Assembly: GCF_000763385.1 (NCBI RefSeq) | Contig: NZ_JQFA01000002.1 | Coordinates: 3,100,001-3,164,000 of the forward strand | DNA: 64,000 nt | DNA from: Leptolyngbya sp. KIOST-1 | GTDB lineage: Bacteria; Cyanobacteriota; Cyanobacteriia; Phormidesmidales; Phormidesmidaceae | Reading direction: 5' to 3' | In this document: positions 24,531 through 36,451 of the stretch, piece by piece | Numbering within the stretch: position 1 is the stretch's first letter | Layout of the letters: each line of letters begins with the position of its first letter | The notes under the pieces: model-generated | What the model was told of the DNA's origin: nothing | The model's input: only the letters and a program-made list of their open reading frames with translations | Databases searched by the model: none | Position numbers and translations under genes: made by a program

Positions 24531-26552
24531 TCAGTCATCGAGGAGTACCGACGGGTTGCCAGGGACGGTAACGGGCTGCTTGGTGCCCGACCGACTGCTG
24601 CGACTGCTGCGACCATCCAGCTTGCCCTGGGCAATGGGAATCGTGAAGTGGAACTGGCTGCCTTTGTTTTTACCCGCCGACTCCGCCCAGATGGTACCCC
24701 CCAGCCCTTCGACAATCTGACGGCACATGGCCAGTCCCAGGCCGGTACCCCCGGTGGTGCGGCGCAGGGCTCCCTCCTCCTGGTAGAAGCGGTCGAAGAC
24801 GGCATTGAGACGGCTGGGCTCAATGCCGCGCCCGGTGTCGGCCACGGTGACCTGAAGGTGGGTGGGGCTGGAGCGGGTGACTTGAATAGTAATTTTGCCG
24901 GTGGTAGGGGTAAATTTTTGGGCATTGTCGAGCAGTTTGGCCAGGACTTCGACCAGCCACTCGCCATCGGCCCGCACCAGGGGCACCTGCTTAGGAATTT
25001 TGACGCTAATGTTCGGGCTTTCGCCGTCGTCCTGGCTGACGTGGATGCTGCTGAGCGCTAAATCAACGCATTCCTGGATTGAGAGCGACTCCAGATTCCA
25101 CTCCACCCGGCCACTCTCCAGCCGCGAGAGGGTGAGAAAGTCCTGCACCAGCTTGCGCATACGCTCGGCGTCTTCGAGGGCCGACTGCAGCATGATTTGC
25201 CGCAGCTCGTTGGGCATGTCGGGCTCGGTGGCCAGGCTTTCGAGGCAGACCTGAATGGTGGAGAGGGGGGTGCGCAGCTCGTGGCCGGTGATGGCGATCA
25301 GGTTGGCGCGGGTGCGATCGAGAGCTTCGAGCTGCTGGTTCAGGTCCTGCAGGTTGGCATAGGCCTCGGCCTGAATAATGGCGACGCTGAGCTGAGCAGC
25401 GATCGCATCGACCAGAGCCGTATCGTCCTCGCTCCACTCGTAGGCCTGGGGCTGGCAGTGGTGCAGTTCGATCAGGCCCACCAGACTGCCCTGGTAGGTC
25501 AGGGGCACAATCAGCCAGGACTGGATCTGCCACTGCTCAATCAGGGGTTGAATCGCCTCTAGTTCCTGACGGAAAGGGGAGTCGCGGGCCTGGGTATCGG
25601 CAATGGCGATGGTCTCTTTGGTGTCCTGCACGTAGTCGAACAGGGGGTTGGTGGCCAGGGGCCAGGTTTCGCCCAGCAGGGAGCCCACGTTGCCATTCAG
25701 GTGCTGATGGGCAATCACCACGGTGGCATCGGTGGCGCTGCAGGGATAGATCAGGCAGCGACACACGCGCATGGCCTGGCCGAGTTCCTGGGCCGCCTTG
25801 GCAAAAATTTCGTCGGCATTGAGGGACTGGCGCACCACCGAGGTAATGGAGTTGACCAGGCGCTCGCGACGCTCCTGGGCGGTGATGGCTTTATAGGCCT
25901 TGAGCAGCTTGTACTGCCCCGCCTGCAGGTAGGTGACCAGGCGCTGGGTGAAGGGGTCAGGGCCGCCGCTGCCGTCCGGACGCTGGGTTGGGGTGAGGGT
26001 TGGGTCGATGTAGCGGTGGCGGGCGATCGCAACTTTGTCGGCCAGATCGGGGCGATACCCCACAATGCGATCGAGCAGCAGCCCCGCCGCCGCCTGGGCA
26101 ACGTAGCGATCCTGGGTCCAGACGCCTTCAAACCGGCGGGTTTGGTCGAGGGGAGGACCATCGGTGGGCGGTACCGATCGCTCCCGGCAGATTAAGCAGG
26201 CGCTGTAGTCCTCCCCAACCACCACCAGATGCCATTCCTGGGTGAGGGCATCGTCGGCCTCAAAGGCAATGGTCTCATAGTTGTCCGAGCGACTGACAAA
26301 GCTGGTGCCCAGGGCTGACAACACGTAGACCTGGTCAGTGAGTTCTGCAATCCGCAGGTAGCGATTGGCCTCCTGGAGATAAAACCGCTCCTGCTGAAAG
26401 CTGGCGATCACCAAAAACTTTGCAGTTCCCGCCAGCACGTGATCCTCCATAGCATGGGACAACGCCGTCAGCGAGGTTTTGAAATAGAGGCTGGGTCTAA
26501 GCTGGGGAATTGCGGTCAGCAATTCTTCCACGACAGATGTGGAATTGCTCAT
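24531..26552 (-). CDS. DICT-GAF sensor histidine kinase
   Basis: 673 residues, no membrane segment. DICT sensory domain at about 15-125 (LRPSLYFKTSLTALSHAMED), a GAF domain at about 240-395 (RVCRCLIYPCSATDATVV; WLIVPLTYQGSLVGLIELH), a coiled coil, the HisKA phospho-acceptor His424 in ITGHELRTPLSTIQV, and the HATPase domain with N box LLDNAQKFTP, G1 VADTGRGIEP and G2 GTGLGLAMCRQIVEG. The Ser/Arg-rich tail after residue 645 is low complexity. DICT domains are often paired with light or redox signalling in cyanobacteria. No response regulator is adjacent; the partner is unknown. Confidence 0.92.
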   Translation of the reverse strand: MSNSTSVVEELLTAIPQLRPSLYFKTSLTALSHAMEDHVLAGTAKFLVIASFQQERFYLQEANRYLRIAELTDQVYVLSALGTSFVSRSDNYETIAFEADDALTQEWHLVVVGEDYSACLICRERSVPPTDGPPLDQTRRFEGVWTQDRYVAQAAAGLLLDRIVGYRPDLADKVAIARHRYIDPTLTPTQRPDGSGGPDPFTQRLVTYLQAGQYKLLKAYKAITAQERRERLVNSITSVVRQSLNADEIFAKAAQELGQAMRVCRCLIYPCSATDATVVIAHQHLNGNVGSLLGETWPLATNPLFDYVQDTKETIAIADTQARDSPFRQELEAIQPLIEQWQIQSWLIVPLTYQGSLVGLIELHHCQPQAYEWSEDDTALVDAIAAQLSVAIIQAEAYANLQDLNQQLEALDRTRANLIAITGHELRTPLSTIQVCLESLATEPDMPNELRQIMLQSALEDAERMRKLVQDFLTLSRLESGRVEWNLESLSIQECVDLALSSIHVSQDDGESPNISVKIPKQVPLVRADGEWLVEVLAKLLDNAQKFTPTTGKITIQVTRSSPTHLQVTVADTGRGIEPSRLNAVFDRFYQEEGALRRTTGGTGLGLAMCRQIVEGLGGTIWAESAGKNKGSQFHFTIPIAQGKLDGRSSRSSRSGTKQPVTVPGNPSVLLDD

Positions 26553-32191: not shown

Positions 32192-32364
32192 TCAGAACTC
32201 GCGCAGGCTTGCAGTACTGTCTTCACCATTCCATGAATGGTGGGCGATTTCAAGGGATGGCCGGGGCCCGGCACCGGGGGATGGTCAGCGGAGGGCGACA
32301 GCCCTCTAAGGCCGACCAGGTTTGGTGTCACAATAGCGGATAACTATGGTTGTTCGCACCGTTT

Positions 32365-33072
32365 ATGGATTTCACCACCGTTCGCCCTGCTCAGCTAACG
32401 ATTGTCGCCAGCGATTTTGACGCTCGACCCATGAGTTTTATCCAGGAGGGGGAACGCTTGGGCTACGAACCCGCCGTGGCGCGGGCCGTTGGCGAGGTGC
32501 TGGGGCTGGAGCCCGTCTGGGTGGATATTGCCCCCGACCAGTTTTACCCCGCCCTCAGCACCGGCAACTACGACGTGGTGTGGTTTAGCCAGGCGATTAC
32601 CCAGGATCGCCGCGCCTGGGCCGACTTTACCCGTCCCTATGGGCGGTTTGATGAGGCGGTACTGGTGCGCGAAGACAGCCCCATCCACACGGCCGCAGAC
32701 CTGGCGGGCAAGCGCCTCGGCATCCTAGCGGGCACCACCTCGATCGCCCTGCATGAAGCGCTACCCGACCTGGAGTGGGTAACTTTTGTGGGTGCAGATC
32801 AGACCCTGTCAACCCTGCTAGCGGCCCTGGGAGAGGGCGCGATCGACGCGCTGGTGGGCGATGCCCTGCCCCTACTGACGACCGAAGCCGATACCGGTAC
32901 CCTGCGGGTAGCCTTTCAGCTACCCACCCAGCATCCCTTTGGCATCGGCGTTTTGCCAGGCAACCGGGAGTTGCTAGAGGCCCTCAACCAGGCCCTCAAT
33001 CAGCTGATTGTCAACGGCACTCTGGCCAAGCTGTGGGCCCAGTGGCTTCCCTATAAGCCGTTTCCGTTCTAG
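32365..33072 (+). CDS. Family 3 solute-binding protein without signal peptide
   Basis: 235 residues from the ATG at 32365; a TTG 15 nt upstream is also open. SBP_bac_3 fold: LTIVASDFDARPMSFIQEGERLGYEPAVARAV, NYDVVWFSQAITQDRRAWADFTRPYG, DLAGKRLGILAGTTS and GIGVLPGNRELLEALNQAL. Proteins of this kind bind amino acids in the periplasm, but here there is no signal peptide and no permease beside it, and the ribosome site is weak. It may be a cytoplasmic relict or a sensor piece. Its last 62 bp overlap the convergent GGDEF/EAL gene. Confidence 0.75.
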   Translation: MDFTTVRPAQLTIVASDFDARPMSFIQEGERLGYEPAVARAVGEVLGLEPVWVDIAPDQFYPALSTGNYDVVWFSQAITQDRRAWADFTRPYGRFDEAVLVREDSPIHTAADLAGKRLGILAGTTSIALHEALPDLEWVTFVGADQTLSTLLAALGEGAIDALVGDALPLLTTEADTGTLRVAFQLPTQHPFGIGVLPGNRELLEALNQALNQLIVNGTLAKLWAQWLPYKPFPF

Positions 33073-36000
33073 GCCGGAGGGCCGAGCGGTTGAGCTGGCC
33101 GATCAGGGCCGTGGCCGCCTCTACCGACAGGGGCGGAAAGAAATGGTAGCCCTGCCCACCCTGGCAGTGGTGCGATCGCAGGTAGTGGGCCTGCTCGGCG
33201 GTTTCAATCCCCTCGGCAATGACGCTGAGGTGGAGGTTGGCGGCCAGGCTCAGAATGGCTTTGACAATCTCGTCGTTGCCCTGGTTCTGGGTAGGACTGT
33301 TCAGCGTGGTGACAAAGGATTTATCGATTTTGAGCACGTCGATGGGAAAGCGATGCAGGTAGCTGAGGGAGGAATAGCCCGTGCCAAAGTCATCCATACA
33401 GATTTGAATGTGGCGCTGGCGCAGCTGCTGAAGCAGATCGATGGCCAGCTGGGCGTTTTGAATCAGCACACTTTCGGTAATTTCGACCTTGAGATGCCGT
33501 CCCTGGAGACCATTGCGAACCAGGGCCCCGTCGATCTGCTGGATCAGGTCGGGGCGCACGAACTGCTTGCCGGAGAGGTTGACGCTGACGCTGAGCGCCT
33601 GGCTGGCGGCGAACTGCCGGTGCCACTGGCTGAGCTGACAGCAGGCCTGATTGAGGGTCCTGCGATCGAGCGCGGTGATCAACCCTAGATTCTCGGCCAT
33701 GGGAATAAAGTCCAGGGGCGGCACCAGCCCCCGCTGGGGGTGCTGCCAGCGCACCAGGGCCTCAAACCCCTGGGGAATCCCGGTGACCAGATCGACGAGG
33801 GGCTGATAGAACAGCCTCAGCTCTGAGCGCTCCAGGGCACGGCGCAGGTCGTTTTCGAGCTGCATTTGCTGGACGACCAGGGCGTGCATGGGGGCATCGA
33901 AAATGGCGTACTCGCGGTTGCTGCCCTTGGCTTTGTACATGGCGATGTCGGCGTCGCGCAGGATCTGGTTGGGGTCCGTGTAGGCGGGTGAACTCAGGGC
34001 AATGCCAATGCTGGTGTGGATGAAGACCTCGTGGCCCTCCAGCAGCACCGGGGCTTCGAGAATGGCATGAATGCGGTGGGCCATAGCGATGGCATCGGTG
34101 GCATCGCTGAGGTCGGCCAGCAGCACCACAAATTCGTCGCCCCCCAGACGGGCAGCCAGATCCGCTGAGCCCAGGCAGGTCTGCAGGCGCTGGGCCACCA
34201 CCTGGAGCAGCTGATCGCCAATGGTGTGGCCCAGGCTGTCGTTGATGACTTTGAACCGGTCGAGGTCGAGAAACAGCAGGGCAAACTGGCGATTCGCAGA
34301 GCGTTCTGTCCCGGCATCGCCGCAGGAATCGATCGGGCCATCTGAGGACCAGGAGCCTGGAGCAGTGCTGGACTGGCCCTGGTCATGCAGCCGATCGAGC
34401 GCCTGGGCCAGCCGTTCCAGGAATAAAGTCCGGTTGGGTAGGCCGGTGAGGCGATCGTGGGAGGCATCGTAGCGCAGCTGGGCCTCCAGCCGCTTGCGCT
34501 CGGCCAGCTCCCCCTGGGCCTGGGCGTACAGCTCGGCCTGGTGAATGGCGATCGCCAGGTGGTCGGCCACCCGCTTGATCAACTTGACTTCATCCTGGCT
34601 CCACTGCCGGGCATGGGGGCACTGGTGCACGCTCAAAATGCCTTTGACCACGCCCCGGTAGCGAATGGAGACCGCCAGTATGGCCCCAATTTCGAGTTTT
34701 AGGGCCAGGCCTAGCTGTGGGACCAAGACGGGCTCCTGGGTGACATCGTTGACGACCACCGGGGCTTCCTGTTGCAGCACTTTCCGGGCGTGGGGGTTGC
34801 CCTCGATCGGGATAATCTGCCCCTCTAAGTTGTCGCAGCCCGGCACGCTGGCCGTGCTGGTGTGGGTTAGGTAGGCGTCGGTGGCCTGGCAGAGCACCAC
34901 CAGGCTCCGGCTAGCCTGAAACGTCTGCAGCATTTCGGTTGCCGTTCGCTGCAGTAGGGTGTTGAGCTCCAGGCTGTCGCTGATGGCGCTGATGATATTG
35001 TTGAGCAGCGTTTCCTGGCGGGCCAGGGTGGCGGTTTGATCCAGCAGCTGACTCTGCTGCAGGGCAATAGCCACCTGGTCGGCCAGCTGAACCAGCAGGG
35101 CGATCTCCTGGGACTGCCACTGGCGTGGGCCTCGGCAGTGGTGAACACACAGCAACCCCCACAGCTCGCTGCCGCAGTTGATCGGGACAACCAGGTTGGC
35201 CTGCACCTGAAACCGCGCCAGCAACGCTCGGTAGCAGGGGGCGATATCGGCCTGACTGACATTGCCGATAGGGTGGGTACGGCCCTGGCGGTAGCTGTGG
35301 ACCAGCTCAGGGCTGGTCAGAAAGCAGGTATCTTCGACGGTGAGGCCCAGGGTGGCGGCCCAGGGGGGCAGCACCGCCTCGACTACCATGGTGCCGCTGA
35401 AGTCAGGGTTGAAGCGGTAAATCAGCACCCGATCGGTCTGCAAGAACTGCCGGATTTGGGTCACGGTGGTCTGCAAAATTGCGTTCACATCCAGCGACTG
35501 ATGGATGTGCTGGGTCATGGTGCGAATCAGGCGCTCCTCTTCGGCCTGGCGGCGCAGAACCGTTTGGGCTTCGACCAGGAGCGTGATGTCGGTGGCAACG
35601 GAACCAAAAATGGGGCTGTTGTCGCCATCGGTGCCCACCGGAAACAGCACGGAACGGTAGACCTTTTGCCGATCGCCCAGCTGCAGCGTATCTTCGACCG
35701 TCAGTGGAGTCTGGGTTTTCACCAGCTGCCGCACTCGGGCCATAAAGGTGTTGGCGATCACCGCTGGCAGCAGGTCGACAAAGGCTTTGCCGACGATCTC
35801 CTCGGGCCTCAGCCCAAACTGGTCAGCGGTGGCCCGGTTGACCCGCAGGTAGCGCCCATCGATATCAAAGATATTGACCAGGGCCGGGGTGTTGTCGATA
35901 AAGGCCTGCATTTGCTGGTGGGCGTCGACCAGGGCCTGATCGGTCGGCCTGCGATCGCCCAGGTCGAGCCCAACGCCGTGCAGCGATTGCTGGGCCTGCC

Positions 36001-36451
36001 GCTGCTCGCTGAGGTCCTGGCCCAGGCTGGCGATCTGCCGGACCTGGCCCTCAGGGCTGGCCCAGACGGTATAGTTCCAGGCAATCAGACGTCGATCGCC
36101 GCTGCGGGTTAATACTTCGCCGCTGTGGTGGGTGGGGCACTGCCTGCGGGCGATCGCCGCCGCAAAGAGCGCTTGTTGCTCCTGCCGCTGCTCAGCGGGA
36201 ACAAACAGCTCAAACCAGCTGCGGCCGACGACGTCCTGGCTTTGCCAACCGATCAGCTCGAGCAGGTAGTCGTTGCAAAAGACGATGTTGCCCCCGGTAT
36301 CGGTAATCAACCCGGCCAGAGCCATACTGTTCAGCAGGGTGCGAAAAGGCTGCTCAGGGGCTTGCGGCTCACTGATGGGGTCAGTCGTTGCGGTTTGTGC
36401 CCGCCCTGCGGGCGAGGGGTCGGGGGCAATCGACATCCCATCATCGTTCAT
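33011..36451 (-). CDS. PAS-PAS-GAF(CBCR-like)-GAF-GGDEF-EAL protein
   Basis: 1146 residues, no membrane segment. Domains in order: PAS at about 35-150; PAS at about 180-295; a GAF at about 305-465; a second GAF at about 490-640; GGDEF at about 660-840 with intact GGDEF (770-774); EAL at about 860-1120 with intact EAL (897-899), so both cyclic-di-GMP synthesis and breakdown are possible. The first GAF looks like a DXCF cyanobacteriochrome: DTCF at 374-377 and a candidate bilin cysteine, Cys406, in PCYRALLARFQVQANLVVPI, with Tyr where His is usual. The second GAF lacks these cysteines. Probably a light- or redox-tuned c-di-GMP switch for motility or attachment. The gene's 3' end overlaps the convergent binding-protein gene by 62 bp. 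Confidence 0.93.
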   Translation of the reverse strand: MNDDGMSIAPDPSPAGRAQTATTDPISEPQAPEQPFRTLLNSMALAGLITDTGGNIVFCNDYLLELIGWQSQDVVGRSWFELFVPAEQRQEQQALFAAAIARRQCPTHHSGEVLTRSGDRRLIAWNYTVWASPEGQVRQIASLGQDLSEQRQAQQSLHGVGLDLGDRRPTDQALVDAHQQMQAFIDNTPALVNIFDIDGRYLRVNRATADQFGLRPEEIVGKAFVDLLPAVIANTFMARVRQLVKTQTPLTVEDTLQLGDRQKVYRSVLFPVGTDGDNSPIFGSVATDITLLVEAQTVLRRQAEEERLIRTMTQHIHQSLDVNAILQTTVTQIRQFLQTDRVLIYRFNPDFSGTMVVEAVLPPWAATLGLTVEDTCFLTSPELVHSYRQGRTHPIGNVSQADIAPCYRALLARFQVQANLVVPINCGSELWGLLCVHHCRGPRQWQSQEIALLVQLADQVAIALQQSQLLDQTATLARQETLLNNIISAISDSLELNTLLQRTATEMLQTFQASRSLVVLCQATDAYLTHTSTASVPGCDNLEGQIIPIEGNPHARKVLQQEAPVVVNDVTQEPVLVPQLGLALKLEIGAILAVSIRYRGVVKGILSVHQCPHARQWSQDEVKLIKRVADHLAIAIHQAELYAQAQGELAERKRLEAQLRYDASHDRLTGLPNRTLFLERLAQALDRLHDQGQSSTAPGSWSSDGPIDSCGDAGTERSANRQFALLFLDLDRFKVINDSLGHTIGDQLLQVVAQRLQTCLGSADLAARLGGDEFVVLLADLSDATDAIAMAHRIHAILEAPVLLEGHEVFIHTSIGIALSSPAYTDPNQILRDADIAMYKAKGSNREYAIFDAPMHALVVQQMQLENDLRRALERSELRLFYQPLVDLVTGIPQGFEALVRWQHPQRGLVPPLDFIPMAENLGLITALDRRTLNQACCQLSQWHRQFAASQALSVSVNLSGKQFVRPDLIQQIDGALVRNGLQGRHLKVEITESVLIQNAQLAIDLLQQLRQRHIQICMDDFGTGYSSLSYLHRFPIDVLKIDKSFVTTLNSPTQNQGNDEIVKAILSLAANLHLSVIAEGIETAEQAHYLRSHHCQGGQGYHFFPPLSVEAATALIGQLNRSALRPRTETAYREATGPTAWPECR

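Follow-up and report, generated by a model that had tools for sequence, protein, structure and literature searches.

The gene at positions 33011–36451 (minus strand) of a 64,000-nucleotide stretch of the Leptolyngbya sp. KIOST-1 genome, hereafter the window, raises the question of whether a cyanobacteriochrome of the DXCF type here sets c-di-GMP by light colour. The open reading frame starts with ATG and encodes 1146 amino acids, in which Pfam recognises the order PAS-PAS-GAF-GAF-GGDEF-EAL (models PAS, PAS_4, GAF, GAF_2, GGDEF and EAL), with E values of 2.1e-41 for GAF (a whole-protein figure), 5.5e-46 for GGDEF and 3e-73 for EAL. The first PAS domain (PF00989) covers residues 36–146 (36014–36346, minus strand, as are all domains given here) and the second (PAS_4) residues 186–277 (35621–35896); two orthologues of about 1250–1290 residues, L011 and L024, carry three PAS domains, one of which is absent from the window protein and from the rest of the short forms, leaving two. 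A plasmid search returned no full-length match and mainly GGDEF-EAL similarity. The original prediction had described a DTCF motif containing Cys376, with Cys406 30 residues on, followed by Tyr407, ANLVVPI, GGDEF and EAL, and all of these are in place, the motifs starting at residues 374 (DTCF), 405 (PCYRA), 418 (ANLVVPI), 770 (GGDEF) and 897 (EAL).

GAF1 (residues 321–464, 35060–35491) finds its closest solved matches among cyanobacteriochromes, with phmmer E values of 7.4e-47 for 6oap and 2e-27 for TePixJ (3vv4), and a GAF1 profile matches TePixJ 3vv4 at E = 1.1e-46. Alignment with TePixJ, proposed at the outset as a check, sets its DPCF-REHWVEAYRQGR...LTECH, with 28 residues between the cysteines, against the corresponding part of GAF1 (TePixJ IEDPCFREHWVEAYRQGRIQATTDIFKAGLTECHLNQL; GAF1 VEDTCFLTSPELVHSYRQGRTHPIGNVSQADIAPCYRALL). 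Cys376, in the DTCF motif (residues 374–377, 35321–35332) and the second cysteine expected to bond to bilin C10, aligns with the DPCF cysteine, and Cys406, the canonical bilin-attachment cysteine that precedes Tyr407 (35231–35236) where His is commoner, aligns with the CH cysteine. The two domains have in common the Asp, both cysteines, YRQGR, a Leu at +5 after the second cysteine, ANLVVP and a later His; the expected spacing of about 28 holds for TePixJ, with GAF1 longer by two residues inserted directly after DxCF. GAF1 thus departs from two usual, though not defining, DXCF traits, having a spacing of 30 in place of 28 and Tyr in place of His after the canonical cysteine. It does not look like a red/green (XRG) domain, which has WxDxxL and no DxCF cysteine, since Val372 stands at the Trp place and Cys376 is present, nor like an insert-Cys domain, whose second cysteine lies in a loop insertion, since here the paired cysteine sits in DTCF. 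In an AlphaFold model built from 20 relatives (mean pLDDT 88), DTCF and CY each lie at the beginning of a helix or next to it. The evidence from Pfam, solved structures and alignment therefore supports the assignment of GAF1 as a DXCF-lineage cyanobacteriochrome domain in a GGDEF-EAL protein, and likewise supports a position of the cysteine pair at the chromophore pocket rather than away from it. A blue/green photocycle is plausible. Met355 of the window protein occupies the alignment position of the β2 Phe in 6bhn, which we take to be the conserved Phe of the trapped-twist model. Photoproducts of DXCF domains range from teal through orange, and the trapped-twist model, of which the conserved β2 Phe is part, also explains the teal ones (PMC5578081). 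Because of Met355 at this place, we lean faintly towards a green rather than a teal photoproduct.

A search of 65 family genomes yielded 20 Nodosilinea orthologues, so classed because most have neighbour genes in common (a hypothetical protein, a solute-binding protein, a lysozyme and, where the sequence extends far enough, an M16 peptidase); L028 is counted among them on sequence alone. The solute-binding protein gene (family 3; 32350–33072, plus strand) lies convergent to the photoreceptor gene, its 3' end overlapping it by 62 bases, and the pairing is conserved across the genus. About 6.5 kb from the photoreceptor gene, the window also encodes a DICT-CHASE6_C-GAF-histidine kinase sensor (24531–26552, minus strand). 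Asp374, Cys376, Tyr387, Cys406, Leu411 and His437 are invariant in all 20 orthologues and in all 25 relatives that have both cysteines, and within the genus the Phe of DTCF is retained in 19 of 20. The presence of both cysteines in all 20 orthologues, together with the matches to solved cyanobacteriochromes, rules out chance as the source of the GAF1 motifs. Judged against the chromophore-site residues of miRFP670nano3 (Asp56, Phe59, Tyr67, Arg71, Tyr87 and His117; PMC10357936), most invariant pocket residues of GAF1 are, by analogy, chromophore contacts, and Leu411 corresponds to Leu527 of TePixJ, which lies near the bilin D-ring (PMC7504144). Two relatives outside the orthologue set, L029 and L033, have lost both cysteines while retaining the rest of the protein (L029 also lacks Asp374 and Tyr387), and none of the 27 relatives has lost just one, a joint loss from which Cys376 and Cys406 appear to behave as a pair. 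In L033, the catalytic DDFG of EAL is replaced by DGFG. Elsewhere, a cyanobacteriochrome GAF with DSCF (L057) occurs in a contig of coverage 2 binned as Chloroflexaceae, which is probably misbinned cyanobacterial DNA. Bilin-less versions do survive in proteins of this sort, as in L029, L033 and the GAF2 of the window protein (residues 494–637, 34541–34972; without cysteines at the bilin positions), and their survival would be compatible with a GAF1 that has given up bilin binding and serves only in transmission or dimerisation, with the PAS domains sensing something else. We consider this highly improbable, given that both cysteines and the pocket residues of GAF1 are invariant in the 20 orthologues and that GAF1 is nearly as conserved (0.85) as GGDEF and EAL (0.87), whereas the first PAS domain scores much lower (0.60).

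The original prediction had ascribed an unusual chromophore pocket to Tyr407, and this part of it finds no support and is for the most part mistaken. DNA patterns for DxCF, 28 residues, Cys-Tyr or Cys-His, xxx and Leu were scanned across 146 phylum genomes, and counts summed over 64 Cyanobacteriia gave 57 raw matches with Cys-Tyr (reversed-pattern control 2; a few of the 57 carry in-frame stops and are chance) and 240 with Cys-His (control 0). Cys-Tyr hence makes up about one fifth of the matches to these patterns in the 64 genomes. On a tree of 98 DxCF GAF domains (169 columns, position 407 among them), 22 changes between Tyr and His are needed, and branches with good support make at least 11 of these unavoidable; the 50:48 ratio of the two states in this tree is not a frequency, as its sampling was balanced by design. 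The window genome itself holds at least five further DxCF-Cys GAF domains (L002, L003, L004, L007 and G000:C4:1225523-1225629), three of them with Cys-Tyr. Pattern counts and repeated switches on the tree make Tyr a recurrent minority state and dismiss Tyr407 as the oddity of this protein. Its rare feature is instead the spacing: a search for the 30-residue pattern gave 8 raw matches in Cyanobacteriia against 6 in the control, and the GAF domains among them are confined to the window gene, G142, G159 and G161.

A common residue may still matter for function. In red/green cyanobacteriochromes, Cys-Tyr has been called exceptional and is tied to strong fluorescence and weak or absent photoswitching (PMC9378818), for which reason photoconversion of GAF1 is not to be assumed, and the His-to-Tyr change at this position is a studied engineering step (H87Y in miRFP670nano, chosen by directed evolution, and the CY variant of SPI1085g3; PMC6336887, PMC9378818). 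GAF1 might accordingly bind bilin with Tyr407 stacked on the chromophore and switch poorly, as a sensor that is fluorescent or almost unresponsive to light, like NpF2164g5 or miRFP670nano. The gain of bilin binding and fluorescence in SPI1085g3 H484Y (PMC9378818), the face-to-face stacking of Tyr87 on the bilin in miRFP670nano3 (PMC10357936) and the retention of Tyr407 in 18 of 20 orthologues (His in the other two) all speak for such a sensor. We nevertheless judge it unlikely: the Cys-Tyr cases just named have no DxCF cysteine and bind phycocyanobilin or biliverdin in an unbroken π system, whereas every Cys-Tyr orthologue has Cys376, which would be unexpected were the two-cysteine chemistry idle, and the D-ring lock of miRFP670nano is due to N117H (PMC6336887), the equivalent His437 being already invariant in the family of the window protein. 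A search of the available papers for the effect of Tyr in two-cysteine members found no account of it, and a characterised DXCF member with Tyr may still exist; among 11 independent pairs, no column listed co-evolves significantly with the Tyr/His state. What has been described as a near-unique exception in red/green members is common in two-cysteine ones, where it has arisen repeatedly, and the Tyr/His orthologues L027 and L026 and the tandem GAF domains in L067 and L071 offer natural pairs for asking what the Tyr does. As a speculation, which we hold to be rather doubtful, Cys-Tyr DXCF domains might form a recurrent spectral or kinetic class in which Tyr on the bilin alters the addition of Cys376 to C10 (so that, for instance, the photoproduct is very stable or forms in one direction only, or switching is absent), and through which Nodosilinea, with its DxCF loop two residues longer, would read light dose rather than colour for c-di-GMP.

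With two heme oxygenases and a single bilin reductase, PcyA (NF002760, E = 7e-109), encoded in its genome, the organism has the genes to make phycocyanobilin. At the output end, the GGDEF domain (residues 718–846, 33914–34300) has an intact RLGGDEF and the EAL domain (residues 867–1107, 33131–33853) intact EAL, NLS, EITES, DDFGTG, KIDKSF and AEGIE, in agreement with the earlier reading of both as intact, so that by its motifs the protein joins a cyanobacteriochrome GAF to GGDEF and EAL domains that are both catalytically complete, as in the SesC type. The I-site (residues about 761–764, 34157–34180) reads GSAD, the Arg of RxxD being replaced by Gly; SPAD stands here in L013 and HTTD in L027, and the remaining genus orthologues retain the Arg. 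Its loss should weaken product inhibition of the GGDEF domain. GGDEF-EAL hybrids often act in one direction only, and the best NCBIfam score of the whole protein belongs to the Tlr1612 phosphodiesterase model, over the GGDEF-EAL span only and well below cut-off. It is therefore quite conceivable, if short of an even chance, that EAL alone is active in an otherwise unchanged bilin-binding DXCF photoswitch and that GGDEF binds GTP and plays a regulatory part, making a phosphodiesterase like SesB. Here, however, the GGDEF domain keeps RLGGDEF and its other motifs unaltered, whereas that of SesB lacks residues needed for activity (PMC5871770), and we put a SesC-like bifunctional output only a little ahead of a phosphodiesterase-only one in likelihood. 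No PilZ domain was found in the window genome at E 0.001, whereas the Synechococcus elongatus control gave a match, so the PilZ-cellulose route of T. vulcanus is not the obvious output. Enzymes of c-di-GMP are all the same numerous in this genome, whose receptor is probably of a non-PilZ type.

Domain layout, the alignment of the cysteines with TePixJ, conservation, joint cysteine loss, catalytic motifs and pigment genes together support the protein as a DXCF cyanobacteriochrome setting c-di-GMP by light colour, a reading that we regard as probable and in which we infer both light behaviour and enzyme activity from sequence. Heme oxygenase and PcyA would supply phycocyanobilin, which would be attached via ring A to Cys406 and probably isomerised to phycoviolobilin by the GAF1 pocket, and in the dark 15Z state Cys376 would be added to bilin C10, giving a blue-absorbing form. 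Blue light would then flip the C15=C16 bond and break the bond to Cys376, yielding a 15E form that absorbs green or longer wavelengths, which green light would return to the starting state. The change may reach GGDEF and EAL by way of the GAF2 linker, and there one colour would favour synthesis and the other breakdown in SesC-like bifunctional control, with product inhibition lessened. The two PAS domains and GAF2 could carry other signals.

Cyanobacteriochromes with Tyr immediately after the bilin cysteine offer one comparison: in NpR3784/miRFP670nano and SPI1085g3 C448S_CY the Tyr likewise follows the cysteine and is stacked on the chromophore, but there it is engineered, no DxCF cysteine is present, the pigment is biliverdin or phycocyanobilin and absorption is in the red (PMC6336887, PMC9378818). 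The red-inactive, fluorescent NpF2164g5 class of the XRG lineage, which does not photoconvert, resembles GAF1 in Cys-Tyr, GAF1 having the DXCF and not the XRG motif. TePixJ (3vv4, 4glq), the reference DXCF blue/green switch, is distant from GAF1 on the 98-GAF tree and, for all the residues common to both, differs from it in having His after the canonical cysteine, the shorter spacing and a chemotaxis-transducer output. In Cph2 and in SesA/SesB, as in the window protein, cyanobacteriochrome or phytochrome GAF domains regulate c-di-GMP enzymes, though the domain order differs. SesA only synthesises and SesB only breaks down (PMC8846402), unlike the control expected here. Precedent for cyanobacteriochrome control of c-di-GMP comes from SesA/B/C, and the nearest described working model, compared here by description, is SesC of Thermosynechococcus, which joins a phycoviolobilin-binding cyanobacteriochrome GAF to blue/green-controlled synthesis and breakdown of c-di-GMP and retains RxxD (PMC5871770, PMC8846402). 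From SesC the window protein differs in its two PAS domains, second GAF, Cys-Tyr, 30-residue spacing and missing I-site Arg. It is an ordinary but sound addition to the known kind of DXCF c-di-GMP photoreceptor, whose single rare trait is its loop insertion and whose Tyr407 poses a testable question, and adds for Nodosilinea a candidate light-to-c-di-GMP regulator conserved across the genus.
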